IMG/VR virus record: IMGVR_UViG_3300050116_000063
Coordinates: 1 to 32,533 of that record
Reading direction: 5' to 3' (one strand)
Origin: a virus
Length of the DNA stretch: 32,533 bases
Below, piece after piece: positions 3,451 through 32,523 of this stretch. The translations under genes were made by a program, and so were the position numbers. Numbering within the stretch: the stretch's first letter is position 1; each line of letters begins with the position of its first letter. The notes below the pieces were generated by a model. That model was not told the DNA's origin. It ran no database searches and saw only the letters and a program-made list of their open reading frames with translations.

Positions 3451-3650
3451 CCGAAGATCCTTTTAAAATCTGCCTTGGTGTACCATCGCTTTCCTTTCGC
3501 AGCCCGCATTGCCTCGTCGACCGCCTGTTTTCGCGTTTCGCAAAACTGTCCCAATGATTTCATGCAAGCCCATTCGATCGTCGGAAATTTCCAACGATAA
3601 CCAAAGATGCTCTCGGTGATTTTAATATCCATTTTTCGGATCGCTCTCAT
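3447..3650 (-). CDS. Small protein between the transketolase subunits, unknown
   Basis: A 67-aa basic protein with aromatic residues (FGYRWKFPTIEWACM, GKRWYTKADFKRIFG). No family was recognised and no membrane segment is seen. It is bounded by 4-base ATGA overlaps on both sides (3647-3650 and 3447-3450), so it is almost certainly translated together with the two transketolase subunits. A second Met at residue 7 is possible as a start, but the overlap favours the first. Its place between two halves of an enzyme suggests a small accessory subunit; this is inference only. Confidence 0.6.
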   Translation of the reverse strand: MRAIRKMDIKITESIFGYRWKFPTIEWACMKSLGQFCETRKQAVDEAMRAAKGKRWYTKADFKRIFG

Positions 3651-4306: not shown

Positions 4307-4413
4307 GGCGGCCGTATTCTGTTCAAAAGCTTCGGCACCCATTCGGCCAGCATTTGCGCAACCGCATAAGGATCGAGACCGTCATGAAATGAGATTTGTA
4401 CTACCGCGCTCAC
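4303..4413 (-). CDS. 36-aa small protein with GTG start, unknown
   Basis: A short frame reads VSAVVQISFHDGLDPYAVAQ followed by MLAEWVPKLLNRIRPP. It starts with GTG overlapping the stop of the glycosyltransferase-like gene (GTGA, 4410-4413) and ends overlapping the ATG of the transketolase subunit (ATGA, 4303-4306). It thus fills the gap exactly and keeps the chain of coupled overlaps. No homology was recognised. It is predicted to be an amphipathic helix in its second half. Confidence 0.5.
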   Translation of the reverse strand: MSAVVQISFHDGLDPYAVAQMLAEWVPKLLNRIRPP

Positions 4414-5231
4414 AAAAGCCCTTTCGCTTTAAGTACGCTCCGAACGCCGTCGACATTATTCGCATGAATAGCTTCCGGATCCAAATCGACCTTTTCCCGC
4501 CCATTGATGATGACGCGGAGCTCGACAGTCTTTCGATTCCAAATGTTAAAGGTCGGCCAGCTTGGCCCGGTCGAAACCATCAGGATCCGCCGGCAGCGTT
4601 GGGATAGCTGTCCGATTTGCGTCACGGTCCAGTGTAAATCCTCAGTCGTGAGATAGCCGGCGCCGGAGAAGTGGTTTGTGGCCATCAACGAGTAGCCGCG
4701 TTCCCGGAGATCCAAGATTAGTTGATCCATTTCCGAGGGCCGGTATTCAGAAGCTTGGCCGCTCAAGGGCCTTGCATTGACGACGAGAAAATCGAGCTTT
4801 CGGTTTTCCTCATAATCCGGCGATTTGTTTTGGAGTGCCGGATAGTCGAACAACAAATCGCGGGGAGTCGACAGCGCCGAGCGAAGGCCCATCTGGGCCG
4901 CCAGGATCCGAAACCAATCGAGGATGAATGTCGCGTAATTGTTTCGTGTCGCCCTGTCCGCTCGCTCGTAGCGATCGCCTGTATTTTTCCAAGCGTCGAT
5001 CGAGGGCACGCGCGGCTTTGCGAACCAATGCATAGATCCGAATGTCTCGGGGAGCGCAACGAGCTTGATTGGCAGGTCTAAAGTCATCGCCTCAAGCTCG
5101 CGAATATATTCCGCGTGGAGATGGTGCTCAAAGCAATGCCCCGGATTCGCTTCAGCCAGCTTTCGCAAGAAATGCACATGCGCGAGATTGTCGCCGAGGC
5201 GCAAGGCGCAATGAGTCCGGATTGTCTTCAT
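4410..5231 (-). CDS. GT9-like (heptosyltransferase-fold) glycosyltransferase candidate
   Basis: A 273-aa product from the ATG at 5231. The N-terminus MKTIRTHCALRLGDNLAHVHF resembles the start of GT9-type proteins, where a Gly-Asp after the first strand precedes helix 1. The same ALRLGD-like start occurs in the 271-aa protein at 18618. Later parts (PLSGQASEY, YSLMATNHFSGAGYL, ILMVSTGPSWPTFNIWN) look like a Rossmann-type second domain with a Ser/Thr-Gly-Pro loop. GT9 enzymes transfer heptose or related sugars. The catalytic residues are not obvious, so the call is tentative. The start at 5231 (not the frame start at 5267) gives a 4-base overlap with the upstream gene. The end overlaps the 36-aa gene. 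Confidence 0.5.
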   Translation of the reverse strand: MKTIRTHCALRLGDNLAHVHFLRKLAEANPGHCFEHHLHAEYIRELEAMTLDLPIKLVALPETFGSMHWFAKPRVPSIDAWKNTGDRYERADRATRNNYATFILDWFRILAAQMGLRSALSTPRDLLFDYPALQNKSPDYEENRKLDFLVVNARPLSGQASEYRPSEMDQLILDLRERGYSLMATNHFSGAGYLTTEDLHWTVTQIGQLSQRCRRILMVSTGPSWPTFNIWNRKTVELRVIINGREKVDLDPEAIHANNVDGVRSVLKAKGLL

Positions 5232-5524
5232 TCGATGATTGAATGAAAACCGTGATCTTTGAGACAACCATCGGGAATGCGGCCCAAAAAATCTATGAAC
5301 TGCGCCTGGACAGCGACTTTTCTAGCTCTTTCAACAGCCATTCGCGCAAGCAAAATGTCTCGCAAAACGGATTTGAAGCCTTGCGAGCAATCTTGGGCAA
5401 TGGAGTGCGATTCGTCGAGTGTGCCTGTGAAGATGATCTCAATTTCAAATCTGAAGCTATTAGTAACTTGGATCTTGACGAGCGCATCCGGGCTCGCTGC
5501 TTCGTTTTCATGTGGTGAGATCAT
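5228..5524 (-). CDS. Hypothetical 98-aa protein
   Basis: No family recognised. The middle is a predicted helix (DCSQGFKSVLRDILLARMAVERARKVAVQAQFIDFLG) preceded by a short beta region (KIQVTNSFRFEIEIIF). There is no signal peptide or membrane segment. It couples to the glycosyltransferase-like gene through an ATGA overlap (5228-5231). Its start follows the left inverted repeat of cassette 2 by a few bases, and no Shine-Dalgarno sequence is seen. Confidence 0.6.
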   Translation of the reverse strand: MISPHENEAASPDALVKIQVTNSFRFEIEIIFTGTLDESHSIAQDCSQGFKSVLRDILLARMAVERARKVAVQAQFIDFLGRIPDGCLKDHGFHSIIE

Positions 5525-8714: not shown

Positions 8715-8963
8715 ATGCGGCTTTGGCGCAAGAAGCATCCGCTCAACGCCAATCAACGCTTCGAGGCAAACTGTCGAGCCAAGACGAGGATGCTAATCAA
8801 GCGCGGCAAGATGGCGATCCGCACGACATGCGAGCGATGCGGAGCATCCAAGCCGGAGCGGCATCATCCCGATTATAACCGGCCTGAAATTGTGACGTGG
8901 TTATGCAAGAAATGTCACCGCCATCTACACAAAAAGGAATCTCTTCGGGCTCTGATTCAATAG
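8715..8963 (+). CDS. HNH-type/zinc-finger protein, with apparent frameshift at its start
   Basis: From the only ATG (8715) the product is 82 aa with CERCGASKPERHHPDYNRP followed by WLCKKCHRHLHKK, a CxxC...HH...CxxCH set typical of small phage HNH-like proteins. The same frame stays open back to 8646 and encodes KCKSCLPSKYNARYCLTCK, a textbook four-cysteine knuckle (CxxC...CxxC), but a TGA at 8643 closes it and no start codon lies there. Removing one A from the AAA at 8648-8650 would give ATG at 8642 followed by IKCKSC. So either the gene carries a one-base insertion or the read has an error. Endonuclease function is likely but unproven. Confidence 0.65.
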   Translation: MRLWRKKHPLNANQRFEANCRAKTRMLIKRGKMAIRTTCERCGASKPERHHPDYNRPEIVTWLCKKCHRHLHKKESLRALIQ

Positions 8964-15540: not shown

Positions 15541-16518
15541 ATGCCCTATCCTGTTGGTGGAGTCATCATTCGTGCGGATCTACGCACGGCGCTTGAGCAG
15601 GGGCTCGATGAGCTCAAATTCTGCATCGGCGAAGAGGTCGCGCCGATCTACGAGAGCGACGCGAAGGCCGGCATCTATCTCTTCCGATCGCTTGAGCAGC
15701 GCGGAGCCGCTCGGATCGATGAGAATCGCCGTGCTCCCGGCACGAGCTATCCCGAGGTTACGAACACGTGGAGTTCGCAGCAATTCGAGACGCTGGATTT
15801 CGGATACAAGACAACCGTCGACGATTCGCTCAAAGCCTACGCGAATCGCTTCCTCGATCTCGAAACCTCGACAGCCCGTATCCTCGACGCCAAGGCGATG
15901 CTCGCCTACGAGGTCCGCGTGCAAAACGCGCTCTATGGCGGCGGCTTTTGCGCCAACTCGGCGGCTGTCACCTATGGCCCCGCCAATCTCGCGACCGTCG
16001 ATTTCGTCGGCGACGTGCAGAACGCTTGCGAGCGCCAGCGCGCACTCGGCACGATCCCGAACACGATCGTCTTGTCTTATCCGCTTTGGAATTTCATCCG
16101 GCGGGCGCCGCTCTTCCAAAACTACGTGCGCGGCAACTTCCCGACCGTGCTCCCGACGATCATCAAGGCCGAGCAAGTCGCCTCGATCTTCGAGGATCAG
16201 GGCATCGAGAAAATCCTGATCGGCGGCGCCTATCAGGACACCGGAGGCGAAGGCCAGCTTTATCTCGGCGCCCCGATCTGGCCCAATTCGCAATTCTTCG
16301 TCGGCAAGATCACCGGCGGCGACTTTCTGGCGGGCGGCGCCATGCGAACAATCGCATGGAGCGAAGACGGCGGCTTCAAGTCGGTCGAAGCCTATCGCGA
16401 CGAAGACAAGCGATCGGACATCCTGCGCGTGCGGCAATCGGTGATCGAGCAAGTGATCGATCAGCGAGCCGGGCAACTCATCAACACCGGCTCAACGGCC
16501 GGATCTGTTCTCACCTGA
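15541..16518 (+). CDS. Major capsid protein, gpE-like
   Basis: A 325-aa protein at the expected place after the decoration gene and before a strong terminator. Features of HK97-fold capsids of the gpE group are LETSTARILDAKAMLAYEVR in the spine-helix region, LSYPLWNFIRRAPLFQNYVR, IIKAEQVASIFEDQGIEKIL, WPNSQFFVGKI and a late strand with RTIAWSEDGG. It has no obvious N-terminal scaffold part; a separate scaffold is encoded at 13811. No Shine-Dalgarno sequence is present despite the gene surely being highly expressed. Many copies assemble around the scaffold to form the head. Confidence 0.85.
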   Translation: MPYPVGGVIIRADLRTALEQGLDELKFCIGEEVAPIYESDAKAGIYLFRSLEQRGAARIDENRRAPGTSYPEVTNTWSSQQFETLDFGYKTTVDDSLKAYANRFLDLETSTARILDAKAMLAYEVRVQNALYGGGFCANSAAVTYGPANLATVDFVGDVQNACERQRALGTIPNTIVLSYPLWNFIRRAPLFQNYVRGNFPTVLPTIIKAEQVASIFEDQGIEKILIGGAYQDTGGEGQLYLGAPIWPNSQFFVGKITGGDFLAGGAMRTIAWSEDGGFKSVEAYRDEDKRSDILRVRQSVIEQVIDQRAGQLINTGSTAGSVLT

Positions 16519-16605: not shown

Positions 16606-18621
16606 ATGCCTTCACCAATCGATCCCGATGAGATCCTTCGCCGCTTTGAAGAGCGCCAAAAAGCCGGCCTAGAGCCCGAGGATCCCGACAAGGTGATTCA
16701 TTTTCCCGCCGGCGGGGCCGCGGCAGCGGAGGGCCAGGACGGGCAAAAGACGGCCCCTGGCGGCCGTTTCCCGGCAGGCTTCAAGATTTGGGATAATTCG
16801 GGTATTCCGAATTATTTCTCAGGCGGCAAAAAGCCTTGGTTCTCCCTGGCGGCGATCATGGGCAATGAAGAGCATCACATAGAACGATTTATCAGGACTT
16901 TCGAGCCGATTTTCGACGAAATCGTGCTCGTGCGGGCGATAGGCAACCGGGAGCCCGACGCGACCTTCGAGATCGCCGCCTCGATCGCGACGAAGCCGCT
17001 CTTGCTCGCCGAATATCAGAATTTCCCCGGCTTGGACTGGCCGCATGTCGATGACTTCGCCGCGGCCCGGCAACGGGCCTTCGATCTCGCCCAGGGATCG
17101 TTTATCATGTGGGCCGACGCCGACGACGTGATCGACGAGGAAAGCGCCAAAAAGCTACGGAGCGAGGTCGATCTCGGCAACTTCGACGCGCTTTTCATGC
17201 AATATCGCGTGATCGGAGCTCCAAGCCTCGTCCGTGAGCGCGTCTTGCGCAAGGGCTTCGGCCGTTGGGTCAATCCGGTCCATGAAGCCGTCTCGATGCC
17301 GGCGCATTTCAAGCGGGCGATCCGGCTAGACATGGAAATCTTTCACCTTCCTATGCCAAACAAAGCCGGCGTGCCGAAAGGCCCGGAGGGAATTCACCGC
17401 AACTTGCGGATCCTTGAGCACTCGATCGAGCCGGCGGCGCTCAATTATTTTTACCTTCATCGCGACGCAATGCTCGTGAATGAGATCGTGAAGGCGGTCG
17501 ATTGGGCCAAAATGGCGATCGCTTCCCCGAATCTGACGATCGCCGAGAAATATCGCGTGCATTACAATTGCGCGATGATCTTCATCGGCCGCCAGGATTT
17601 CCAGCAGGCCGAAACTTTCGTGATGAACGGCATGCGGCTTTGCCCGGATCGCCGCGAGTGCTTTTGCTGTATGGCGACGATCGCGATCGAGCAAAAACAT
17701 TACGCGCACGCGCTCCATTGGATCCAAATCGCAAAGTGCATCCAAGCGCCGCAACAGCACAACCGGCCAAATTGGTTTTCGGATGATTGGTATGGCTGGC
17801 GCGCGGATCTCACACACTCATTTTGTTTGCGAAAGCTCGGTCTTCCCGAAGAGGCGCGGCTGGTCGAAGATTCCGAGCACGGCGGCCGGCCGATTATCTC
17901 ACTTCTTCACGCAACCCGCGGCCGGCCCCAGGCGGCGCTCGACGCGCGGGATCGTTTCTTTTCAATGGCATTCAAGCCAGGCCTGATCGAGCACATCCTG
18001 GCGATCGACACCGACGACAAGCAATCGCTCGAAGAGCTCGACGGATTCAACGCGGTCTTGGTCGAGCCCGGCGGCGGATGTGTCCGGGCATGGAACGCCG
18101 CGGCCGCCGCGGCCCGCGGCCGCGTCTTTGTGCAAATGTCCGATGATTGGGATCCGCCCTTTCATTGGGATAACTCGATTTTGTTTGAGTTGCGCGAGGC
18201 GATCGAAAAGAAGCGCCCCGGCGTGCTCGCGATCTCCGATGGGATCCGATCGGACAAGCTTCTTTGCATGGCGATTCTCACGCGCGAGCAATATCGCTCC
18301 CAACGGCACGAGATCACCGGCCAGCCCTATCTTTTTTATCCGGATTATCTCGGCGTTTACTCCGATAATGAATTCACGGTGCGCGCCTATGAGAATGGCG
18401 TCGTCACCGAGGCGCGGCATATCGTCTTCAAGCATCAGCATCCGCTCGCGACCGGCGCCCCGCTCGATGAAACCTATCAAGTGCAGAATTCCCCGGAGCG
18501 ATACGAGCACGGCCGCGAGCTCTTCAATCGCCGGAATCCACGATATAAGATCGAGCCGCCTCCGCCGGTGTCCACTACCATTGACGAAGCGATCGCCTCC
18601 GTCCTTGCGAACACAAAATGA
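16606..18621 (+). CDS. Two-domain glycosyltransferase (GT-A fold at both ends, TPR-like middle)
   Basis: A 671-aa protein placed right after the capsid gene. The N-terminal domain begins at about residue 80 (PWFSLAAIMGNEEHHIERFI), the usual GT2 start, and has the metal-binding DxD as MWADADDVID near residue 172. HEAVSMPAHF further on fits the GT2 acceptor side. The centre (about 320-390: YNCAMIFIGRQDFQQAETFV, then CFCCMATIAIEQKHYAHALH) is TPR-like. The C-terminal domain starts near 425 (PIISLLHATRGRP) with a second DxD-type motif MSDDWDPP near 512. It should transfer sugars from nucleotide donors; the acceptor may be a virion protein or a host glycan. The end overlaps the next gene by ATGA. 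GCCCGG/CCGGGC arms sit directly before the ATG. Confidence 0.8.
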   Translation: MPSPIDPDEILRRFEERQKAGLEPEDPDKVIHFPAGGAAAAEGQDGQKTAPGGRFPAGFKIWDNSGIPNYFSGGKKPWFSLAAIMGNEEHHIERFIRTFEPIFDEIVLVRAIGNREPDATFEIAASIATKPLLLAEYQNFPGLDWPHVDDFAAARQRAFDLAQGSFIMWADADDVIDEESAKKLRSEVDLGNFDALFMQYRVIGAPSLVRERVLRKGFGRWVNPVHEAVSMPAHFKRAIRLDMEIFHLPMPNKAGVPKGPEGIHRNLRILEHSIEPAALNYFYLHRDAMLVNEIVKAVDWAKMAIASPNLTIAEKYRVHYNCAMIFIGRQDFQQAETFVMNGMRLCPDRRECFCCMATIAIEQKHYAHALHWIQIAKCIQAPQQHNRPNWFSDDWYGWRADLTHSFCLRKLGLPEEARLVEDSEHGGRPIISLLHATRGRPQAALDARDRFFSMAFKPGLIEHILAIDTDDKQSLEELDGFNAVLVEPGGGCVRAWNAAAAAARGRVFVQMSDDWDPPFHWDNSILFELREAIEKKRPGVLAISDGIRSDKLLCMAILTREQYRSQRHEITGQPYLFYPDYLGVYSDNEFTVRAYENGVVTEARHIVFKHQHPLATGAPLDETYQVQNSPERYEHGRELFNRRNPRYKIEPPPPVSTTIDEAIASVLANTK

Positions 18622-19433
18622 AGATCATCCTCCAATATCATTTGCGGCTCGGCGACATCATCCGGCTTTTCCCTTTGGCGCGGCACCTCGCCGCCCAGGA
18701 CAAAACCAACGAGATCTTCATCGAATGCCTTCCAAAATATGAGTCGATCTTCGGGCTCGTCGATTATGTGAAATGGAAGCATCCCGACGCACCGCTCAAG
18801 GATGCTTCGGGAAAGCCGCTATACGACGCGCTTTATCCACTCCAAATCTGGCCGGCGCGGGCTCAAGCCTACCGGACGAAGCAACCGCCGCTTCGCTTCA
18901 CCGATTTTTTAACGAGCGGCTTTCCTGACGAGTTTCGCGGAATTCAGAAGGCAATCACCTTCACGAAATTGCCGCCGATCGAGCATGTGCTCGCCAAATA
19001 CAAGCTCCCGGCCGCCTACTCACTCGCCTGTCCGGCCGGCTTTTGCGAGAACATCCGCGGCGATTACGGCCTCTCGCGGCCGATCGATTTCTATATTTTT
19101 GAAAATTGGTGGATCCATTCGATCAAGCCGCGCGGCGCCCTTTATTACCTGTCGCCGCTTTCCTCGGGAATGAATCGGCAATTTGTGCATGTTACCGATC
19201 TCTCGGATCTCGCGACCCTGATTCAGCATGCCCTCGATTTTGCGACGATTCTCTCGGCGCCGGCCGTGATCGCCTCGGCGCGCTTCGAGAAAAAGCCGCT
19301 TCGCGAAAAGTGGCATTACGTTTCCCCGATCGATCCGATCTCTCGGGCCTTGGATGACATCGGCGCCAAAGAGCAAGTGCGATGGGAAGTTGAGCTCAAC
19401 GCTGCGACTCCCCGTATCGTGCCGCAAAAGTAG
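18618..19433 (+). CDS. GT9-like sugar-enzyme candidate, paralogue A
   Basis: A 271-aa protein starting MKIILQYHLRLGDIIRLFPL, where LRLGDII is the Gly-Asp loop of GT9/heptosyltransferase-type proteins. It continues with IFIECLPKYESIF and VDYVKWKHPDAPL, which match IFLECFEAHKKL and AIKWKNPHHP in the protein at 20246; the two are paralogues. A second domain starts near AYSLACPAGF, ending with a helix-rich part. Catalytic residues cannot be assigned. It overlaps the two-domain glycosyltransferase by four bases, so both are made together, probably acting on one glycan. Confidence 0.55.
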   Translation: MKIILQYHLRLGDIIRLFPLARHLAAQDKTNEIFIECLPKYESIFGLVDYVKWKHPDAPLKDASGKPLYDALYPLQIWPARAQAYRTKQPPLRFTDFLTSGFPDEFRGIQKAITFTKLPPIEHVLAKYKLPAAYSLACPAGFCENIRGDYGLSRPIDFYIFENWWIHSIKPRGALYYLSPLSSGMNRQFVHVTDLSDLATLIQHALDFATILSAPAVIASARFEKKPLREKWHYVSPIDPISRALDDIGAKEQVRWEVELNAATPRIVPQK

Positions 19434-19775
19434 ATGGCCGACAACAATCCAACGCTTCGCGCCACAATCGCCCGGCAGGCGGCCGGCATTTTCGGTTTCC
19501 AATTCACATCGACCTTCGAGATCAGCGGCCGCATACCCTCCACTAATGCGATGCTGACGGAGCTCTCCGAATCCGACAAGCTTGAGATCGCCGGCACCGA
19601 TGTGATCCGTGCTCAATCGGTCATGGTTTTGGCGGCCGACTTGCTCGGCGTGAACATCAAGTCGCTGATCGGCTCGACTGTCGTTCTCGACGGGGATCCG
19701 GCATGGCAACTCAAGAATTTCCGGATCTCTCCCGACGGCGCTATTTACACGTTTCTTTTGCTCGATGCTCAATAG
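19434..19775 (+). CDS. Head-tail connector or completion protein candidate
   Basis: A 113-aa protein starting at once after the preceding stop. Beta-rich, with TVVLDGDPAWQLKNFRISPD and GAIYTFLLLDAQ at the end, a pattern seen in small head-completion proteins (a late FxIxxx...G strand pair). Its position after the capsid and before tail genes fits the head-tail joining slot. No diagnostic motif was seen. Confidence 0.45.
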   Translation: MADNNPTLRATIARQAAGIFGFQFTSTFEISGRIPSTNAMLTELSESDKLEIAGTDVIRAQSVMVLAADLLGVNIKSLIGSTVVLDGDPAWQLKNFRISPDGAIYTFLLLDAQ

Positions 19776-19778
19776 CCC

Positions 19779-20249
19779 ATGCCAACAGCCCCGGCAAATT
19801 TCGACGATCCGCGCTATCTGACGGAGCTCGCATTCAAGAACATCCTTCAAAAGCTTTGGGGATCTCAGAATGTTTACATCACCGGCGACACGACGCAGCA
19901 TATTCACCCCTGCATTACCGTGCGCGCTCTTCAAGCGAAAGAGCAACTCGCGCCGGGCACCGGGATCTTCCGGCTTCGCGTCCAACTCGACTTAAAGCAA
20001 AAGATCGACAACCAAACAGCCGAGGTTTCCGAGCAAAGTTTTCGGGCAATGCGGCAATGCTTCTATCGAAACGACACCGATCCGCGGCCGATGGTCGATC
20101 TCGCAAACCGGCTCTCGGCGGCCGTCGCCCCGCCTTACACCGTTTCCGGCATCGTGCCGAGTGACGAGCCGGCGCCCGGAGTAGAGGCCGACGTGCGTGT
20201 GATGACGCGATCGCTCGCCTTTGACGTGTTCGCAACCGCTAACCGATGA
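19779..20249 (+). CDS. Minor tail/tail-completion protein candidate
   Basis: A 156-aa protein. LTELAFKNILQKLWGSQNVY begins it, then strands (ITVRALQAKEQL, FRLRVQLDLKQK) and a helical segment (SEQSFRAMRQCF) followed by the closing strands DVRVMTRSLAFDVFA. The layout of N-terminal helix then beta sandwich is that of tail terminator proteins such as gpU. The end overlaps the next gene by 4 bases (20246-20249). Confidence 0.45.
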   Translation: MPTAPANFDDPRYLTELAFKNILQKLWGSQNVYITGDTTQHIHPCITVRALQAKEQLAPGTGIFRLRVQLDLKQKIDNQTAEVSEQSFRAMRQCFYRNDTDPRPMVDLANRLSAAVAPPYTVSGIVPSDEPAPGVEADVRVMTRSLAFDVFATANR

Positions 20250-21136
20250 AGCACGTCATCAAGAGGCACGCCGGCGATCTTCAAGCCTTCCGGTCACTGG
20301 CTGTCGCACAAGCGGCCGCGGCCGCGGATCCGAAGGCCGAGATCTTCCTCGAATGCTTCGAGGCGCACAAGAAGCTCGTGGCCCTGGCGCCGGCGATCAA
20401 GTGGAAGAATCCGCATCATCCCTATGCCGTGAGCGAGCGGGCTAAAACGCTCGACTCTGAGGGCAAGCAAGTTTCCGGCCGCCCTGGCGGGAAGCTCTAC
20501 GACGAGGTGATCGACCTCGATCCGGATACTCCGCTTGAAACCGAATTTCTCAAATCGGGCCTGCCTTGGTGGAAATTCATCTCGGCGAAGGTGAAAGCCC
20601 AAAGCGAATTCGGATCCAGGCTCAAACCCGCGAATTTTCCCGAGATCATCGATCCGCCATGCCCCTATGCGGCGCCGCCGCAAAATTACGTCGTCTTGGC
20701 GCCGCTTTCCCGCTTTGCCAATCCGAGGGTTTTGAATGTGAACGGCCTCCATGAATTCGCCAAGGCGCAATTCCCAGGAGCGACGATCTATTACATTTCT
20801 GAGGACAATGTTTTTTTGGGCGAAGGCCGCAACCTGCTCCACTATGAGGATTTCGTTTGGCTCGCGTGGATCCTCAAGGCGGCGACGGCCGTTTTTGCGG
20901 TCAACGGCCTCGTCTCGGCCCTTGCTCAAAGCACGATCAAGGGCAAACGGCTTGTCCGAAAATACTGCCATATTCAAACGGTCAAAGCCGGCGACGCCGG
21001 CCGCGACAGCTTCTTGAAGTATTGCGCGATGATGGAAACGGAGCTCGATCGCGACGCCGGCGAGCCCGCATGCGCCATCGCGACGGCCTTGTTGGATCGC
21101 ACGATCAAGACCGAAAGAGGCTTTCAGCCGGATTGA
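20246..21136 (+). CDS. GT9-like sugar-enzyme candidate, paralogue B
   Basis: A 296-aa protein related to the one at 18618: MKHVIKRHAGDLQAFRSLAV keeps the Gly-Asp at the same place, followed by EIFLECFEAHKKLVALAPAI and KWKNPHHP. YVVLAPLSRFANPRVLNVNG begins the second domain, with ATIYYISEDNVF and later WILKAATAVFAVNGLVSALA, the helix-loop typical of the donor-binding side in GT-B folds (xxxxVxxNGxxxxxA). The gene lies between two tail genes and overlaps the first, so it shares their transcript. A role in virion or receptor glycosylation is inference. Confidence 0.55.
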   Translation: MKHVIKRHAGDLQAFRSLAVAQAAAAADPKAEIFLECFEAHKKLVALAPAIKWKNPHHPYAVSERAKTLDSEGKQVSGRPGGKLYDEVIDLDPDTPLETEFLKSGLPWWKFISAKVKAQSEFGSRLKPANFPEIIDPPCPYAAPPQNYVVLAPLSRFANPRVLNVNGLHEFAKAQFPGATIYYISEDNVFLGEGRNLLHYEDFVWLAWILKAATAVFAVNGLVSALAQSTIKGKRLVRKYCHIQTVKAGDAGRDSFLKYCAMMETELDRDAGEPACAIATALLDRTIKTERGFQPD

Positions 21137-23589: not shown

Positions 23590-24705
23590 ATGGCCGAAGA
23601 GAATGTCAGAATCGATTTGAAGAGCACGGCCGACACCGCCGGCTTTGAAAAATTCGAGTCCAGTTATAACACGCTCCGAGCGGCCAAGCAGTCTCATATC
23701 GGCGTCAATAATGATTTCGTCGAGAGCGAGCGGCGCGTGCGCACAAACCTTGTCGATTTGGTCGGCGGCCTCGCGCAAGCGCGCGACGGGATGGAAGCGA
23801 CCGCCTCCGTCGTCGGGCATCTTTCGGAGGTTTTCAAGGTCGGCTTCGCCGGAACGGTGATCGCCGGGATCGGCGCCGCGATCATCGAGCAATTCGCAAA
23901 GGCCGATCAGGCCATCAAGGCGACAACCGACAACATTCTCAAAAGCATCGACACGCTGAAGGCGCTCAATGACGAGATCACCGGCCGCAAGATCTCCCCG
24001 GATTTAAAAAATGAGCAGGCATTGCGAAAGGAAGAGACTGGCTTTTTGCAAACGAGCCACCAAATCGGATCCGGATTTTTCGGCAAAGCCTCGATCGGCC
24101 TTGAGAATCTTTTCGGAATCGGAAGCGGCGCGACAAACTATCGGCAGGCGCAGGCCGATCAGGCTCTTCGAGGGACGATCCTCCAATCGGACATGACTGC
24201 GGAGGCGATCAAAAAAGTAAACGACGGATTCCAGGCGGCCGGCGACAAGATCAACGATTTCACTTGGAGCAAGGAAAAGCCGAAGACGGGCGAGCTCGGC
24301 ACGATCGATTTTCAAAACGCACTCAAAGCCGACGAAGATAGCGCCGCGGCCGAGCTCAAGGCGGCCGAAGAGAAAGGGCGCTCCGATCGCGCCTCGTCTG
24401 AGGCGAGCAAAAAGAGCGATGAAGCCGCGAAGCAGGAGGCGAAGCAAAGCGCCGAAGCCCAGGATCAGGCGGCGCGCGAGGAAGCCCGCCAGGACACGGC
24501 AGATTCCCGCCCGGAACGGATCAGCGCGCATATTTATGCCGGCAAGCAGCGCGAGCTCGGCGGAGGCGGCGGCGTCTATTCGGTCATCACTCGGGATCCA
24601 GTCTTGGACGAGAATCGCAAACAAACCGGGATCCAGGCCGATATTGCTAACATGCTCAAATCGCACTTCTCATCTGCGGCGCCGGCGGCCGCAACCCTGG
24701 GCTAG
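23590..24705 (+). CDS. Tape-measure-like protein, short
   Basis: A 371-aa protein that is helical and repetitive in charge. One hydrophobic segment sits near residues 78-97 (KVGFAGTVIAGIGAAIIEQF), as in tape-measure proteins, with flanking coiled-coil regions and a long Ala/Glu/Lys/Arg-rich helix in the last third (ELKAAEEKGRSDRASSEASK). It follows the G/GT chaperones, the position of the tape measure in siphoviruses. It is short for that role: lambda gpH is 853 aa. At about 1.5 angstrom per residue a tail of roughly 55 nm would follow. A podovirus-type internal protein is the alternative. Confidence 0.55.
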   Translation: MAEENVRIDLKSTADTAGFEKFESSYNTLRAAKQSHIGVNNDFVESERRVRTNLVDLVGGLAQARDGMEATASVVGHLSEVFKVGFAGTVIAGIGAAIIEQFAKADQAIKATTDNILKSIDTLKALNDEITGRKISPDLKNEQALRKEETGFLQTSHQIGSGFFGKASIGLENLFGIGSGATNYRQAQADQALRGTILQSDMTAEAIKKVNDGFQAAGDKINDFTWSKEKPKTGELGTIDFQNALKADEDSAAAELKAAEEKGRSDRASSEASKKSDEAAKQEAKQSAEAQDQAAREEARQDTADSRPERISAHIYAGKQRELGGGGGVYSVITRDPVLDENRKQTGIQADIANMLKSHFSSAAPAAATLG

Positions 24706-24708
24706 ATC

Positions 24709-25404
24709 ATGGCGCATATAATCATCGGATCGGTTTCGAACACGCTCATGCCGGGCGCGACGCTTTCCTATGAGAGCGATGGGACGATCAACGGCACCGC
24801 GCGCTACGGCTATTTGCAAGGCGCATCGCCCTCGGTCATCGGAAATCAGCATCCAGACGACAGCCGCGCGGTCGTCGTCTCCTATACGTTGGAATACGAC
24901 GAAGTGTTTCTTTACGCAAATTGCGTCTATCGCGGCGTTTGGTCGACCTCCGCGACAAAGGTCGACGTGCAAGCCTCCCTGTCGGCGAATCCGATCGAGA
25001 CGCACCCAAACTTTGTATCGACATTAGGCGGAACGCCGGGATCTGAGCTCAACGGCGCCGTCTTCGATAGCAATGGCGTCTTCCTCGGCTGGCCGGCCGG
25101 CGCTACCCTCGGGCTCGGCGGCGTGCGCTACTATCTCGCGGCCGGCTGCTCGATCCGCTTCACGAGTTCGACGACCTCCGGCTCGGCCGTCGCGTCGGCC
25201 CTGGCGGCTATCGGATCGATCGCAAGCTCGATCTCCGGCGGCGGCTCGACCTTCACGACTGCATACACCTTTCCCGGCTTCATGCTGCAAAACGTGACCG
25301 TCGATTGGCAATATCTAGGGAGCGCGACGACGATTTACACGTATTCGCAAATTTGGGTGATGACTCAGCCCCCCGGCTGGAATTCCAACATTTATCCGCC
25401 TTAA
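24709..25404 (+). CDS. Hypothetical virion protein (tail tip or fibre), Ser/Gly-rich
   Basis: A 231-aa protein with beta-strand and Gly/Ser/Thr/Tyr-rich composition: YESDGTINGTARYGYLQGAS, a middle with VSYTLEYDEVFLYANCVYRG, and a low-complexity linker (ASALAAIGSIASSISGGGST). No catalytic motif. It starts four bases after the tape-measure-like gene and begins a run of three structural-looking genes that ends with the 916-aa protein. Confidence 0.5.
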   Translation: MAHIIIGSVSNTLMPGATLSYESDGTINGTARYGYLQGASPSVIGNQHPDDSRAVVVSYTLEYDEVFLYANCVYRGVWSTSATKVDVQASLSANPIETHPNFVSTLGGTPGSELNGAVFDSNGVFLGWPAGATLGLGGVRYYLAAGCSIRFTSSTTSGSAVASALAAIGSIASSISGGGSTFTTAYTFPGFMLQNVTVDWQYLGSATTIYTYSQIWVMTQPPGWNSNIYPP

Positions 25405-25408
25405 GGTC

Positions 25409-26041
25409 ATGGGCAATCCGATCAGCGGGCAGTCGAAGGCGGCATTTGCGGGCGAGCTTCTTCGAGCTCGCCGGATCAATCGCATGGACGATGCGGACAC
25501 TGCCAATGTGCTCGCGCTGCTCTCGATGGGGTTTTTCGGCGGCCGCTTTCCTGGCGGCAATGTGCTTGTGGCTATTCCGGGCTCGGGAGGCGCCGGCGCG
25601 GCGACGATTTATCCGCCTTGGTTTCCCTTTTGGACGCAAGACGGCTCGGGCAACTATCAGGCCAATTTCTACGCCGGCACCGTCGGCGGCATCGTGCCGT
25701 CGAATATGTTTACGCCGGTCGCGCTCACGCAAAACCAAGTCAATTACCTCTATCTCGCGTGCACGGCCTCGGGCGGAATCATTACCGCGGCGACAATCAC
25801 GGCGAGCACGACCTATCCGACGATCGCGGCTTCGACCTCGGGCGCCCCGCCGACGAGTTTCAACATCCCGATCGGGATCTTTGACCTCACAGGATCGGCG
25901 CCCGTTTTGCACAACATCGTCGGCTTCGGAAACATTTGGGTCCAGCCCTACGTGAGCTTGCTCACGACCGCCGTCTCGCCGACCGTGCTCTCGGCGCCCT
26001 TCACTGTGACATATAATTGGGAATGGGGCGCGGGGAATTGA
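25409..26041 (+). CDS. Hypothetical virion protein (tail tip or fibre)
   Basis: A 210-aa protein. The N-terminus (KAAFAGELLRARRINRMDDA) is helical; the rest is beta-rich with short repeats of Thr/Ala/Ser (IITAATITASTTYPTIAAST) and a closing FTVTYNWEWGAGN. An AAGG lies just before the ATG. It forms a set with its two neighbours. Function unknown, probably particle surface. Confidence 0.5.
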   Translation: MGNPISGQSKAAFAGELLRARRINRMDDADTANVLALLSMGFFGGRFPGGNVLVAIPGSGGAGAATIYPPWFPFWTQDGSGNYQANFYAGTVGGIVPSNMFTPVALTQNQVNYLYLACTASGGIITAATITASTTYPTIAASTSGAPPTSFNIPIGIFDLTGSAPVLHNIVGFGNIWVQPYVSLLTTAVSPTVLSAPFTVTYNWEWGAGN

Positions 26042-26044
26042 GCA

Positions 26045-28795
26045 ATGTTCCTGACGTGCTTCACTTACCGGCAAGCCAACTGGACTCCAGACTGTTCCTG
26101 GCAGGGCCCGTTTGGATACACCGCACAGAGCACGGTCTTCTCCGGTGCTTTTAACACCGGGCAAGGAATTATCTCAGTCACGGCGGGATCGACGATTACT
26201 CTGACTTCGTTCGAGGGATTTCAGGCCTCGCAAAATGCCACTTCGCTTGCGTTCACCTCTACAGTGAGGAGCGGCTCCAGCTATATCGACACCGAAAATG
26301 GTCAGTTTTACACGACGGTAACCGGTGAGACCACAGGCGGCTCTTTCGCGTACGGCGGCGGGTTCTCAGTGGGAGTTCTGAACAGCACGACAAATGCTTT
26401 TGCGTGGTACACCTCGTCGAACACGAGCTTCTGGTATTGGAGCCAGGTCGCCGGATCGACCATTGCGATCACCGAAAGCCGGAGCCTGCAAGGTCTGACC
26501 TCGACGAGTTCGTACGTCTATAAGGCTTCGGTCACCTCCCAGACCGTTTATCTGACCTATGTCGCTTTAACAACGACACCCACGAGCACGACGAAGACCG
26601 GAACGCCCACAAGCACGACGACCACACGGTACACTTGGACGATTGACTTCGGATCTATCACGCAATTGTCGTCGTCCACTCTATCATCGTCATCGAGTGC
26701 CTCGGCATCCGGCACACGCAATTCGACGACTGTTTCTTCGACATTCACGACGACAACCGGCGCCACGGCGACTATCATCTCGACCTCTACAGCCTCGACT
26801 AGCGCAAAGATTTTTTCTGGCAATGCCGGCACGGTCACGCTCACGACCGTTTCAACGGCGACAACGGCGACGACCGGGACAACCGTCACTTTTTCCGCCA
26901 ACACGACCGCCACTGAGTCGATCGCAACGCCGTCTTGGTGGGGTTGGAGCTATGAGAGAGGAACTGTTTTATTAGCCACCGGCAACACCGGAATTAATGA
27001 TCTTCCGCTTTGGCTTGAAAAAAGCAATTGGATCGGATCCATCGCCGGCCTTTGGAATTTCTCGACCGCGACACAAACGACTCTTTGGCCGTCTCAACCG
27101 ACCGCCCAGGTGAACGCCGCAGGCTCGATCCAATCCTCGGCGGCTCCGGCGACAACGACGACGACCCTCTTAACCTCGGGATCTTTCACTTGGTTTGGGA
27201 GCTCGACGACCGGCGTCGTGACCGCTGGCTCTTCGATTGTAGTTTTCTCCGAGTCGACTTCGAGCGGGCCGATCACGGCTTCGGTTCCCTTGGCCCAAAC
27301 ATCGGGAAGTGTGACCTCTTGGGCTAATCTCTCGACCTCGCAAAGCGGATCGATCCTTACGCCGATTAACACGACGACTTCGACCTATGCCCAAACCGGA
27401 GCGACCTCGGGCAATTATACTCCGGATGTTATGACCGTGCTCATCTCGACGATCGGCGGGATCACGACGGCGACGACTTACACCATGACGACGCTCGTCG
27501 CGGGATACTTCACGACCTCGGCGGCCTCCGGATCGCTGGATAATATCTTGACGACAACGGGCATCACGACGGCCTCGATGCAATCGGCGACGACGACGAG
27601 CTCGTCCGACACTTGGTTTTTAGATTGGAGCAATCCGATCCAGACCGTGGCATTTACAAGCGGTCTTTCTTCGACCTCAAAAACCAGCAGCAATAATCCG
27701 GTTGTAAGTACGACTGGGACGAATGGTTTCATCACGACGACCCAGATCACGATCACGTCGAGCCTCTATACTTTCACCGCTCAGAGCGGCGGGACGAGCA
27801 ACAATTTCACTCAAAACCAATTCGCGGCGCCTTTCCTGATTCCGACATTGGTCACCGCGCTTTCGACGACCGCCGGCCTCGCTTTCTATCAGCCGGGATC
27901 CGTCGGAATTTGGTCGGCGATCCCATCGCAACAAGCGTTTGTGAATACTTCGGCGACGAGCATCACCTATCAAAGCGCCTCGATCTCGGCCCCGAGCTCG
28001 GCGAGCTCGATCTCGATTCTCGCCTTGGAAAGCGGCGCCTTCCGCTCGATCAATTCGATAAGCGGCCCTATCATCATGACCTCAACCGGGCTTTGGGTCA
28101 TCGGCTCGGCGCCGTCGACCTTCGGCTCGACCGGCACTTCGAGCACCTCGACCAATCTCACTCAAACCGACACGAGCACGACGATAAACGTCAAAAGCAA
28201 TTCTTGGCGCGGCCCGAGCGTCACCTTCACCAACGCCGTGACGAGCACCTTCATGGAGTCGGCCGGCTTCACGCGCGCGACCTCAGACACACACACCGAA
28301 AGCTTCCTTGGAGTAATCACGCAAGTTTCCGGCTCGATCACCAAGACGAGCAATTATGTATCGACGCAAACCAACAATGCGCCGGTGACTTGGACGCAAA
28401 ACACGACCTCCGGCACCGTCTTCCAATACTTTCCCGGTGCGGGCGGATCCTGCAAATTCAACCCTGGGCCGGTCACGCTCAATGTCTCGGGCGCGGCCGT
28501 GAGCCTCGCCGGCAACTCGACGACGTGGAGCACGGCGAGCCCGGCCTTCCTCCAAGTCGTAATCGGCGGATCCTTCACGACGACGAGCTCGACGACGAGC
28601 TCCCTCGCCGGCGCCGGGGCGTTTTCGATTTGGACGATCCCCGGCATCGCCTCGGTCATCACATCGCCGGCTTATTCGATCTCGACTTGCCGCGATCGCT
28701 TCGTGCCGGCGCTCACCTCGGCGTCGCGCTTCTGGCTCACTCCGGATCCCTTTCTCCTGCCTTTGCAAGTGACTGCTCCGCAACCAGCCAGATAA
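26045..28795 (+). CDS. 916-aa Ser/Thr-dominated surface or fibre protein
   Basis: By eye about 40% of residues are Ser or Thr, with runs such as TTTTGATATIISTSTASTSA and TSTTTTRYTW, interspersed with Ala, Gly, Ile and a few Trp (for example FWYWSQVAGSTIAI). There is almost no Lys, Glu or Asp through most of its length. The N-terminal 110 residues contain a normal beta-rich part (FTYRQANWTPDCSWQGPFGY). The C-terminus ends in a short hydrophobic, Pro-rich piece. It follows two virion-like genes, and a glycosyltransferase gene follows it. A mucin-like, glycosylated fibre or tail surface protein is the simplest reading; receptor binding is possible. Its DNA is full of ACG/TCG/ACC codons. Confidence 0.55.
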   Translation: MFLTCFTYRQANWTPDCSWQGPFGYTAQSTVFSGAFNTGQGIISVTAGSTITLTSFEGFQASQNATSLAFTSTVRSGSSYIDTENGQFYTTVTGETTGGSFAYGGGFSVGVLNSTTNAFAWYTSSNTSFWYWSQVAGSTIAITESRSLQGLTSTSSYVYKASVTSQTVYLTYVALTTTPTSTTKTGTPTSTTTTRYTWTIDFGSITQLSSSTLSSSSSASASGTRNSTTVSSTFTTTTGATATIISTSTASTSAKIFSGNAGTVTLTTVSTATTATTGTTVTFSANTTATESIATPSWWGWSYERGTVLLATGNTGINDLPLWLEKSNWIGSIAGLWNFSTATQTTLWPSQPTAQVNAAGSIQSSAAPATTTTTLLTSGSFTWFGSSTTGVVTAGSSIVVFSESTSSGPITASVPLAQTSGSVTSWANLSTSQSGSILTPINTTTSTYAQTGATSGNYTPDVMTVLISTIGGITTATTYTMTTLVAGYFTTSAASGSLDNILTTTGITTASMQSATTTSSSDTWFLDWSNPIQTVAFTSGLSSTSKTSSNNPVVSTTGTNGFITTTQITITSSLYTFTAQSGGTSNNFTQNQFAAPFLIPTLVTALSTTAGLAFYQPGSVGIWSAIPSQQAFVNTSATSITYQSASISAPSSASSISILALESGAFRSINSISGPIIMTSTGLWVIGSAPSTFGSTGTSSTSTNLTQTDTSTTINVKSNSWRGPSVTFTNAVTSTFMESAGFTRATSDTHTESFLGVITQVSGSITKTSNYVSTQTNNAPVTWTQNTTSGTVFQYFPGAGGSCKFNPGPVTLNVSGAAVSLAGNSTTWSTASPAFLQVVIGGSFTTTSSTTSSLAGAGAFSIWTIPGIASVITSPAYSISTCRDRFVPALTSASRFWLTPDPFLLPLQVTAPQPAR

Positions 28796-28821
28796 TTATC
28801 GTCTTGGATCCAAGACGATAA
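28796..28821. promoter_or_regulatory. Perfect 26-bp palindrome
   Basis: A perfect inverted repeat without a loop, TTATCGTCTTGGA and its complement, starting directly after the stop codon of the 916-aa gene. No T-run follows, so it is a poor intrinsic terminator on either strand. It may be a protein-binding operator for the following glycosyltransferase gene or an RNA stem that limits read-through. Confidence 0.5.
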
Positions 28822-28851
28822 ATGAACTTGACGGCTCTGTACGGCGCATGA
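28822..28851 (+). CDS. 9-aa upstream peptide coupled to the glycosyltransferase
   Basis: ATG at 28822 encodes MNLTALYGA and stops in a TGA that overlaps the ATG of the next gene by four bases (28848-28851). It begins one base after the 26-bp palindrome. The neat overlap suggests a leader peptide that delivers ribosomes to the glycosyltransferase start, which lacks a Shine-Dalgarno sequence. It may also be chance. Confidence 0.3.
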   Translation: MNLTALYGA

Positions 28852-30170
28852 CCGAAATTTCTGAAATTGCCTATATCGAGCCAGAAGGCGAACGCCTCGC
28901 GATCACCGTTTGCGCTACCGAGCGTTATCAATACGCGATGACGGCCCAGGCCCGCGCGATCCATGCCAACGTACGGCATTTGCGCATCCCGATCGCGATT
29001 ATTCTCGCCGGCGACGAGGGATTGAGGAAGACCGAGACGCTATACAAATCGCTATTCAAACAGGGCATCGAGGCCGGGCGCGTGATAGTCGATCGGATAG
29101 CAGGCTTTGAATCTCCGATTGGCGAAAACTATAAAAATGCGGCGCAACTCCTGATCGCCCAAATGCGCACGGCCGCCTTCGAGCGCGCTCGTTCCTGGGG
29201 CGCCTCTTTATGTTGGTCCCTCGACTCCGATGTGATTCCGAAGAGCTCGTCGTGCTATGCGACCTTGCGATGGATCTTGGACATCCCAGGCCGCTTTTAT
29301 GAGGTCGCGATCTCGCCCTATCCGAGCCAGGGCGGCGGCGACATGCTCACCGGCCGCGGCACGCCGGAAAACCCGATCTCGCAAGACTTCCTCGAAACGG
29401 AGCGCAAGATCCCCGATGAGCTCGTGAAGCGGATCGTTGCGCATAAGCTCGCCCTGGCCGAGATCAAGCCGCCGGCGCAACCGTCGAAGGAAATGGTCGA
29501 TGAGGCGAATGCGATCCGCAAGGCGGTCAGCGAATGCGAGCCGCTCGGAAACGTCTTTGAGATGACGGCAAAAAATGGCTGGCGCCGGCGCGGATGGCTT
29601 TCGGCCGCTTATCCCGGCCTCGGGCGCGGCTCGATCGTGCCGACGGATTGGTGCGGCTTCGGATCAACGTTAATGAGCCGCCGTGCGCTCGATGAATGCG
29701 ATTTTGCCGGATACGAGGGCGGCGGCACCGAGGATCTTTATATCGTTTGGCACCGTTGGCATCAAGCCGGGATCCGGATAGCCTCGGCTCTGCATGAGCC
29801 GTCATCGCACGTGAGCCGGCGAAGCGACGGGAAATTCTTCATGTCGATGATCCGGTTCGTTACCGACGCAGACGAAGGCAAGGGCGAATGCGTCGGCCAT
29901 ATCCGCACCTTGCAACGGCCCTTCTATGCCCAGGACAAGGGCGAGAAATTCGATCCGGCAAACGACGGGATCCCGACGGCGCCGGCGGATCGCAAGGTTG
30001 AGGGCAAGGCGATCGTGCCGGCAGCGTCGACGAAGGCGGCCGAGCCGACGGCCGCGACGGGATCAGTCGATAAAACCGTTGCGACCGCGATCGCGGTCGA
30101 GCTGGTCACGACGTGGGCGTCCCCCTGGCGGATCCCAACCGTGACGCGCGATCGCCGGCCGAAGAAATAA
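28848..30170 (+). CDS. Glycosyltransferase-like protein with DxD motif
   Basis: A 440-aa protein. RLAITVCATERYQYAMTAQA begins the nucleotide-binding fold, and SLCWSLDSDVIPKSS near residue 127 holds the DxD that binds metal and sugar nucleotide in GT-A enzymes. GTEDLYIVWHRWHQAGIRIA near 295-315 matches the late acidic motif (GxEDxxLxxRxxxxG) of such enzymes, and HVSRRS follows with the likely metal-binding His. The last 75 residues are Ala/Thr-rich and probably a linker or tail. It follows the Ser/Thr-rich gene and may decorate it; transfer to host polysaccharide is the alternative. Residues near 168 read LTGRGTPENPI, shared with the leftward gene at 30462. Confidence 0.7.
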   Translation: MTEISEIAYIEPEGERLAITVCATERYQYAMTAQARAIHANVRHLRIPIAIILAGDEGLRKTETLYKSLFKQGIEAGRVIVDRIAGFESPIGENYKNAAQLLIAQMRTAAFERARSWGASLCWSLDSDVIPKSSSCYATLRWILDIPGRFYEVAISPYPSQGGGDMLTGRGTPENPISQDFLETERKIPDELVKRIVAHKLALAEIKPPAQPSKEMVDEANAIRKAVSECEPLGNVFEMTAKNGWRRRGWLSAAYPGLGRGSIVPTDWCGFGSTLMSRRALDECDFAGYEGGGTEDLYIVWHRWHQAGIRIASALHEPSSHVSRRSDGKFFMSMIRFVTDADEGKGECVGHIRTLQRPFYAQDKGEKFDPANDGIPTAPADRKVEGKAIVPAASTKAAEPTAATGSVDKTVATAIAVELVTTWASPWRIPTVTRDRRPKK

Positions 30171-30248: not shown

Positions 30249-30410
30249 CCGTACTGCACGCCGGAAACGTCGAATTTCCTGAAAGAATTGTCAAGGGCTT
30301 TCCTTTAGGAATCAATGCGTTGCGAGAGATGCGCAATAATACGCACTTTGTTAGTGCTTATGCCCGCGCAGTCGTGCTATGATTGGATCGAGGCCGCGGT
30401 CGGCTTCTCG
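30249..30410 (+). repeat. 162-bp direct repeat, copy 1
   Basis: It is identical, by base-by-base reading, to 30908-31069, offset 659 bp. It contains small dyads: TCCTTTAGGA, TGCGCAATAATACGCA (12 of 16 symmetric) and GCACT-TTGTT-AGTGC, and a TATGAT hexamer near its end. It looks regulatory, not coding. Confidence 0.85.
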
Positions 30411-30465
30411 TTGAGCGGATGCTTCTTGCGAACTCGGCGATTATCTCATCGGCTTCCTTGCTCAC
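30358..30465 (-). pseudogene. Short leftward frame cut by repeat copy 1
   Basis: GTG at 30465 overlaps the stop of the 30462-30812 gene (GTGA). The first 18 residues, VSKEADEIIAEFARSIRS, look like a helical protein. From 30410 on the frame reads into the 162-bp repeat and gives an Arg/Ser-rich tail to a TAA at 30358. It looks like a coupled gene whose body was lost when the repeat joined here. Confidence 0.35.
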
Positions 30466-30812
30466 GGCTTCGGAGGTGTCCAGAACGTGCGCCCGTCGGC
30501 CGCGCGCCAGTAAACGCCGCCGTCATGGTTGAGGAACGCGACCGCATCTTTCGGCGTGTCTTGCACCGGAAAAGCCGGCGGCCCCTGGCCCGTGTCGCCG
30601 GCCGAGAATTCCTTCGCGTACTCGGCTTGAAACTCGACGAGCTCTCGCGGCATCCCTTGCCACGTCGAGAACGCCGGAGCATGCGAGGTCGAGATCCGCG
30701 ATCCGTCGTCGGCGTAATCCGAAAGGATCGGATTTTCCGGCGTGCGGCGGCCGGTGAGCAAAAAAGCGCGCACGCAATGGATCCAACGCGGAGTCGAAAA
30801 TTTGATCTTCAT
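30462..30812 (-). CDS. Hypothetical 116-aa protein bracketed by direct repeats
   Basis: The ATG at 30812 is preferred over the frame start at 30995, which lies in the repeat. MKIKFSTPRWIHCVRAFLLT is followed by GRRTPENPILSDYADDG, a middle with MPRELVEFQAEYAKEFSAGD and an end HDGGVYWRAADGRTFWTPPK. Trp/Tyr-rich, beta-like C-terminus; no family recognised. LTGRxTPENPI is shared with the glycosyltransferase at 28848, and the DNA of this piece matches it in 32 of 34 bases. It is the only leftward gene in the right part of the window and lies between two identical 162-bp repeats, so it was probably brought in as a unit. Confidence 0.5.
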   Translation of the reverse strand: MKIKFSTPRWIHCVRAFLLTGRRTPENPILSDYADDGSRISTSHAPAFSTWQGMPRELVEFQAEYAKEFSAGDTGQGPPAFPVQDTPKDAVAFLNHDGGVYWRAADGRTFWTPPKP

Positions 30813-30907: not shown

Positions 30908-31069
30908 CCGTACTGCACGCCGGAAACGTCGAATTTCCTGAAAGAATTGTCAAGGGCTTTCCTTTAGGAATCAATGCGTTGCGAGAGATGCGCAATAATA
31001 CGCACTTTGTTAGTGCTTATGCCCGCGCAGTCGTGCTATGATTGGATCGAGGCCGCGGTCGGCTTCTCG
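30908..31069 (+). repeat. 162-bp direct repeat, copy 2 (upstream of the XRE gene)
   Basis: Identical to 30249-30410. It ends 44 bases before the XRE gene at 31114 and so probably carries its promoter and operators. The 30813-31113 stretch otherwise holds only about 95 bases of unique non-coding sequence upstream of the leftward gene. Confidence 0.85.
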
Positions 31070-31113
31070 GTTTAAGCTGCATCCTTTATGGCAACCGAAA
31101 CGGAATGTGCCGA

Positions 31114-31374
31114 ATGAAACTCTCCTACACCCATCCCGCGGCCTCTAAAGGCCTTCCCGTCTTCTTGGACGACAAAGGCAAAGTGATGGGCTATTCGGAA
31201 GGCTTTTGGGCTATCCGGAAGAAATTCAGGTTGCGCGCGGCCGATCTCGCGGAGATCTGCGGCGTGAGTCACCGGACTATCGACGGATACGCGATCGGCC
31301 GAAAACCGACCGCCCAGGTTTTGGGCATGCTTGCGCGGTATTTGAAAAGCCTTCCCCGAGATAGGGAATTCTGA
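31114..31374 (+). CDS. XRE-type helix-turn-helix regulator
   Basis: An 86-aa product from the ATG at 31114; ATG at 31105 is an alternative. IRKKFRLRAADLAEICGVSH, then RTIDGYAIGRKPTAQVLGML, is a Cro/CI-like HTH (helix 2 DLAEICG, recognition helix HRTIDGYAIG) followed by helices. N-terminal KGLPVFLDDKGKVMGYSEGF resembles a small beta hairpin. The 162-bp repeat upstream contains several dyads that could be its operators. The end overlaps the next gene by one base (TGATG). Confidence 0.7.
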   Translation: MKLSYTHPAASKGLPVFLDDKGKVMGYSEGFWAIRKKFRLRAADLAEICGVSHRTIDGYAIGRKPTAQVLGMLARYLKSLPRDREF

Positions 31375-32199: not shown

Positions 32200-32523
32200 A
32201 TGGCTAAAGCAAATAAAACTGTCGGGTACGGGTCTGGGTCTGGGGATGGGTATGGGTACGGGGACAGGGACGGGGATGGGGACGGGTACGGGGATGGGTA
32301 TGGGTACGGGGATGGGTATGGGTATGGGGATGGGTATGGGTATGGGTCTGGGTCTTGGTATGGGTCTGGGTATGGGTCCGGGGATGGGGATGGGTCTGGG
32401 TCTGGGTCTTGGTATGGGTCTGGGTATGGTTATGGGTCTGGGGATGGGTATGGGGATGGGTATGGGTCTTGGTATGGGTCTGGGTATGGGTCCGGGGCTG
32501 GGGATGGGTCTGGGGATGTGTAA
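32200..32523 (+). CDS. Gly-Tyr-Ser-Asp repeat protein coded by a G-run array
   Basis: A 107-aa protein. After MAKANKTVGYGSGSG it is a series of dipeptides Gly-X, where X is Tyr, Asp or Ser. The unit SWYGSGYG occurs three times. No charge other than Asp and no hydrophobic core, so it should be disordered or form beta-like fibrils. Gly is coded almost only by GGG, although neighbouring genes use mostly GGC; Ser is coded by TCT and Tyr by TAT. The DNA is therefore an array of GGG every 6 bases for about 300 bp. It follows the DUF6948-like gene without a gap. The window ends 10 bases after its stop. Confidence 0.75.
   Translation: MAKANKTVGYGSGSGDGYGYGDRDGDGDGYGDGYGYGDGYGYGDGYGYGSGSWYGSGYGSGDGDGSGSGSWYGSGYGYGSGDGYGDGYGSWYGSGYGSGAGDGSGDV

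Follow-up and report, generated by a model that had tools for sequence, protein, structure and literature searches.

We found that a Ser/Thr-rich, charge-poor protein of 916 aa (positions 26045..28795, plus strand) and the 440-aa enzyme encoded directly behind it (28848..30170, plus strand), a predicted GT-A-fold glycosyltransferase of an undescribed family, form a gene pair that recurs in divergent phages. The window, meaning the whole 32,533-nucleotide stretch of viral DNA analysed here, also encodes a major head protein (15541..16518, plus strand; phrog_1005, 3e-20), and the pair therefore sits in a cluster of virion genes. We propose that the 916-aa protein is a tail-region surface protein and glycan acceptor, and consider it fairly likely that the enzyme would O-glycosylate it in the cytoplasm, either ahead of particle assembly or in the course of it.

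Threonine makes up 21.3% and serine 17.1% of the 916-aa protein (38.4% together), with 4.8% charged residues (D, E, K and R) and 3.9% proline, in line with the original prediction of about 40% Ser/Thr and few charged residues. The window has 24 ORFs that are 150 aa or longer; their median Ser/Thr content is 11%, and this protein ranks first among them. Its Ser/Thr residues are distributed along the entire chain, with a dense part at residues 180–300, and reach 66% in the densest 50-aa stretch. No regular repeats were found in the ORF beyond short chance matches. The protein had also been called mucin-like; mucin domains consist of Pro/Thr/Ser-rich repeats, and because this protein is not proline-rich and no repeat family was found in it, it is mucin-like in its Ser/Thr content alone. 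No membrane segment is predicted (the Kyte-Doolittle score over 19 residues peaks at 1.58), no export signal was seen, and searches of Pfam, PHROG and PDB gave no matches. Direct searches of viral contigs and of 50,697 phage records with the protein also returned nothing, the sequence being too divergent. Its counterparts in the relatives described below contain 21–44% Ser/Thr and 4–19% charged residues; low charge varies more among them than Ser/Thr content does. The chain is of low complexity and probably trimeric and, judging solely from gene order, we infer that it is part of the virion. Ser/Thr-rich, charge-poor chains can also be plain β-structured fibres, an observation that counts against the glycosylation proposal.

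The next gene had been described as encoding a DxD glycosyltransferase, and both the motif and the predicted fold agree with this. The sequence SLDSDVIP occupies residues 124–131, with the DxD encoded at 29223-29231, and D126-S-D128 comes after strand 121–126 (the end of the fourth strand) in the predicted structure. In the alignment of 25 enzyme relatives, D128, the second Asp of the DxD, is invariant, as are D267, W268, G293-T294, D296, H316 and H321, and D126 is nearly invariant. The conserved domain spans approximately residues 16–375, and the C-terminal tail is lineage-specific. The AlphaFold model built from this alignment has a pLDDT of 83 and a pTM of 0.84, and supersedes an earlier model from nine sequences only (pLDDT 58). 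The top Foldseek matches to the model are all GT-A glycosyltransferases: the best is COLGALT1 (E = 6e-11), followed by LH3 and then by polysaccharide synthases and GnT-I among the PDB fold matches, and the structure matches in BFVD are mostly viral glycosyltransferases. The TM-scores of the closest folds are moderate, at about 0.46, and identity to COLGALT1 and LH3 is about 12%. Assignment of the enzyme to the GT-A glycosyltransferase fold is well supported by this predicted structure, with sugar transfer putative; a fold match of this kind indicates the class of enzyme but neither its donor nor its acceptor. Two points count against the proposal: the TM-scores are only moderate, and the enzymes with the most similar folds use hydroxylysine or polysaccharide as acceptor instead of Ser/Thr. 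Searches of Pfam, PHROG and PDB with the enzyme sequence found no match, tblastn against the 50,697 phage records found none, and the window enzyme did not reach the cut-off of the Pfam GT2 family (Glycos_transf_2), which only 2 of the 25 members approached, at E about 0.05. No convincing membrane segment was found in the enzyme.

Pattern scans of IMG/VR recovered 1, then 8 and then 28 loci encoding relatives of the enzyme, and three further loci were found on contigs of Planctomycetota/Verrucomicrobiota MAGs; clustering at 90% identity gave 25 independent loci, with the window counted in. Enzymes of the main clade are 37–47% identical to the window enzyme, and the pair is carried by uncultured tailed phages that form a scattered group. 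In 23 of the 25 clusters the enzyme is closely preceded by a Ser/Thr-rich ORF, which is its immediate neighbour in 20 and is separated from it by one or two genes in 3. The intervening genes are a weakly sulfotransferase-like ORF in L002, a tailspike in L021 and two small proteins in L038; these three loci count against the pairing, the tailspike being a possible alternative target. An apparent exception, L039, results from a start called too early, and another frame holds a 663-aa ORF with 33% Ser/Thr that ends just before the enzyme. The Ser/Thr-rich ORF is absent from L034 (a short contig) and L035, which form one divergent, long-branch lineage in the tree and in which ESD/EAD replaces DSD, with loss of the first Asp. 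The DxD is thus altered in the sole lineage without the pair, which supports the pairing.

The gaps measured between adjacent pairs range from −65 to +52 bp, and seven independent loci have 4-bp ATGA-type overlaps, which suggests translational coupling. In the window the gap is 52 bp, within which a perfect 26-bp palindrome, TTATCGTCTTGGATCCAAGACGATAA, can be read (28796..28821). Among ORFs of at least 300 aa in the same loci, a Ser/Thr content of at least 25% was found in 19 of the 22 upstream of the enzyme and in 3 of 98 others (Fisher p = 4e-16). Both the composition and the adjacency recur in independent relatives and are therefore not due to chance. Where the contig extends far enough, a common upstream order is a tape-measure-like ORF, an approximately 230-aa protein, an approximately 200-aa protein, the Ser/Thr-rich ORF and then the enzyme.

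The converse arrangement, homologues of the Ser/Thr-rich protein commonly occurring without a glycosyltransferase, was not found among sequence-detectable homologues: each lies on a contig that bears the enzyme or that ends first. Scans with a 5-member subset of the ~200-aa family (the full 17-member set was too poor in conserved stretches) and with the C-terminus of the Ser/Thr-rich protein returned only enzyme-bearing contigs, and because these were mostly the query contigs themselves, the two scans are weak as independent converse tests. The 231-aa tail protein is a better bait for this purpose. It returned 14 loci, two of them already known (L053 is the L051 contig, and L064 the L008 contig). 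In the six independent new loci that have no enzyme and enough downstream sequence (L054, L055/L058/L060, L056, L062, L063 and L065), the next ORFs contain at most 25% Ser/Thr, whereas a Ser/Thr-rich ORF is present in all four bait-positive loci with the enzyme (the window, L006, L007 and L008; p = 0.005, on small numbers and with L006 and L007 mutually related). Loci with the same tail gene and no enzyme thus also have no Ser/Thr-rich gene, the two being lost together, which bears out the co-occurrence of the two genes that the original prediction had put up for checking. At the pair position L063, which belongs to these six, encodes another kind of enzyme, with GT25 and Gly_transf_sug domains, which suggests that this position attracts glycosyltransferases more generally.

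The closest capsid relative of the window is L051/L052, whose contig ends inside the Ser/Thr gene and is outside the judgement of enzyme presence. Identity between the two phages falls from the major capsid protein (76%) through the portal (70%), the 231-aa protein (66%) and the 210-aa protein (50%) to the Ser/Thr-rich protein (31–37%), a gradient that is what one would see with an exposed, adapting outer protein. The Ser/Thr-rich protein of L051/L052, which starts MFLTCSTYR, is 37% identical to that of the window and contains 40% Ser/Thr and 3.8% charged residues, and 165 positions are Ser or Thr in both the window and L052 proteins, compared to 104 expected. Composition is therefore kept much better than sequence. 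The dN/dS of the gene between the two phages is about 0.5, with synonymous sites near saturation.

Three further plus-strand genes precede the pair. They encode a probable short tape-measure protein of 371 aa (23590..24705), assigned only by its position, which is that of the long coiled ORFs in L002 and L005, and with no family match in Pfam or PHROG; the 231-aa protein of the ‘PIETHPxF’ family (24709..25404; alignment, scan and profile search), a companion found in phages that lack the module as well; and a low-charge 210-aa protein directly upstream of the Ser/Thr gene (25409..26041; 17-member alignment, 6e-8 to the L002 counterpart), a conserved companion of the module. The enzyme may act on another tail protein, namely the 210-aa protein, the 231-aa protein or a tailspike, with the Ser/Thr richness being simply the composition of a β fibre. 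The 210-aa family indeed travels with the pair too, and the tailspike of L021 stands between its two genes, but the 231-aa protein is widespread without the enzyme, and the most constant neighbour is the Ser/Thr-rich protein, which keeps its Ser/Thr content and not its sequence; we regard this alternative as unlikely.

The second glycosyltransferase of the window, of GT2 type, lies in the head-tail operon (16606..18621, plus strand) together with two paralogous ORFs, and L051 has conserved all three. This enzyme has a GT2 and a further GT-like domain (Pfam PF00535, 9.5e-11; phrog_13126, 2.5e-18), a PDB match to GmaR at 3e-4 and 60% identity to its L051 counterpart. The ORFs at 18618-19433 and 20246-21136 were considered as heptosyltransferase-like, which Pfam did not confirm. 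The presence of other glycosyltransferases in the operon counts against an exclusive pairing of enzyme and acceptor: it makes a glycosylating phage more plausible and a strict one-enzyme, one-acceptor reading less so. Some relatives have additional sugar-type enzymes next to the pair, which favours the proposal; one is the weakly sulfotransferase-like ORF of L002. Directly behind the enzyme in L003 and L004 (by Pfam) and in L011 (by eye) are a cytidylyltransferase and an RmlD-like reductase, consistent with the making of a special sugar donor.

Alternatively, the enzyme could be a cargo gene beside the tail genes that modifies host surface glycans (LPS or another polysaccharide), perhaps as a barrier to superinfection. 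Enzymes that convert serotype are as a rule anchored in the membrane and carried by prophages, and unlike these the window enzyme has no convincing membrane segment. A cargo gene would moreover be unlikely to retain a Ser/Thr-rich neighbour in 23 of 25 loci that have diverged, in many cases with start and stop codons that overlap. Although polysaccharide synthases are among the PDB fold matches, and some phages are known to change the serotype of their host by means of glycosyltransferases (reviewed in PMC12619734), we consider this explanation rather improbable. Glucosylation of modified phage DNA bases in the manner of T4 is very improbable: phage DNA glycosylation exists (cited in PMC12619734), but a hydroxymethylpyrimidine pathway was not seen among the searched window ORFs, the gene lies in the late tail cluster, and the folds most similar to its product belong to enzymes that act on proteins or polysaccharides.

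Under the explanation that we prefer, O-glycosylation of the Ser/Thr-rich protein, the two genes would constitute a conserved protein-glycosylation pair within the late tail-gene cluster. The long Ser/Thr-rich protein of the tail region, hypervariable in sequence, would be made first; a soluble GT-A enzyme dedicated to it and translated directly behind it would transfer sugar from a nucleotide-sugar donor, provided by the host or partly phage-made, to Ser/Thr side chains; and the resulting particle would carry sugar on its fibres or on a surface protein. Because convincing membrane segments are lacking in both proteins, the modification would be cytoplasmic and would use a soluble nucleotide-sugar. 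The suggestion that the phage itself O-glycosylates its fibre therefore gains from the co-occurrence and from the predicted glycosyltransferase fold, whereas the O-linkage, the Ser/Thr-rich protein as acceptor, its location in the particle and a role of the sugar in binding or shielding are each matters that we infer.

It is possible, and we put it forward tentatively, that the pair represents a widespread undescribed system, in phages of Planctomycetota and Verrucomicrobiota and in others, in which a hypervariable Ser/Thr-rich tail protein serves as a sugar scaffold for its own dedicated GT-A enzyme and host binding, or concealment of the particle, depends on the glycan and not on the peptide. 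The receptor-binding proteins of phages tend to be interpreted as protein folds; if the proposal is true, host range and shielding would depend on sugars that are invisible to comparison of fibre sequences. The products of both genes are apparently soluble, making the pair directly testable by co-expression. The pair, both genes of which are absent from Pfam and PHROGs, also provides a recognisable marker for annotating a set of dark tail genes.

The original prediction held that no case with this layout had been described, which is too strong. In the mycobacteriophages Che8, Corndog and Myrna, virion proteins, namely capsid and tail tube, are glycosylated via phage-encoded glycosyltransferases (Freeman et al. 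2023, as cited in PMC12363180 and PMC12619734). The system proposed here, from the genes alone, is similar in that a phage-encoded glycosyltransferase would target the phage's own structural proteins. It differs in that the C-termini of capsid and tail tube are modified there, whereas the proposed target here is an adjacent, long, hypervariable Ser/Thr-rich tail-region protein, and in that the window enzyme has no homologue detectable by tblastn in the phage records searched. COLGALT1 and LH3, the collagen hydroxylysine galactosyl- and glucosyltransferases, are the closest solved GT-A folds and share a metal-binding motif and, under our proposal, a protein-chain acceptor; they are, however, eukaryotic ER enzymes with a hydroxylysine acceptor, and similarity to them is limited to the identity and TM-score given above. 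GmaR, the Listeria flagellin O-GlcNAc transferase, weakly matches the other window enzyme (16606-18621) and not the enzyme of the pair. GtfA and GtfB of the serine-rich repeat (SRR) systems have a GT-B fold, and the window enzyme, with no Pfam match and a predicted GT-A fold, shows no homology to them. The SRR glycoproteins of Gram-positive bacteria nevertheless present a similar layout, with a Ser/Thr-rich adhesin encoded near dedicated cytoplasmic O-glycosyltransferases (for example PMC5207161, PMC7948813), the acceptor role being putative in our case. Those adhesins have repeat arrays and are exported by accessory Sec, whereas here the enzyme is GT-A and neither an export signal nor regular repeats were seen. 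The cytoplasmic mode with a soluble donor that we propose would resemble the glycosylation of both flagellin and SRR adhesins. Virion glycosylation by phage enzymes is thus already known; what is new is the enzyme family, its Ser/Thr-rich tail-region partner and the tight pairing of the two across divergent phages.

A perfect 26-bp palindrome (28796–28821) lies in the 52 bp that separate the Ser/Thr-rich gene from the gene for the glycosyltransferase; it lacks a T-run and is therefore not a standard terminator. To the right of the enzyme gene, an exact 162-bp direct repeat occurs at 30249–30410 and 30908–31069. The two copies are 659 bp apart and enclose approximately 0.5 kb, within which lies an inverted 35-nt copy (30726–30760, 94%) of the enzyme codons for LTGRGTPENPI (29344–29378). 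This repeat-bounded segment, located upstream of an HTH_3 regulator gene (31045–31371), looks like a recombination scar or a rearranged segment. The right repeat region also includes a 22-nt stretch (30409–30430) with an exact inverted match in the left arm (8727–8748). At the contig end, an ORF of Gly-Asp/Ser-Gly-Tyr repeats (32200–32523) is encoded by tandem DNA with a spacing of 12/18 bp.

The left arm carries a minus-strand cassette (554–5267), consisting of a pectate-lyase-like spike (554–1744), a radical SAM/SPASM protein (1744–2967), a transketolase split in two (Transket_pyr, 2983–3450; Transketolase_N, 3647–4342), and an unassigned ORF (4410–5267). The cassette is of sugar type, which seems unusual for a 32-kb phage.

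Immediately 3′ of the major head gene, 16606–21136 encodes a two-domain GT2 glycosyltransferase followed by two paralogous ORFs (18618–19433 and 20246–21136), all three of which are retained in the related locus L051. In L063, from a phage sharing the 231-residue tail protein, the corresponding place is occupied by a 608-residue protein with Glyco_transf_25 and Gly_transf_sug domains (L063:9547–11373), apparently an independent glycosyltransferase.
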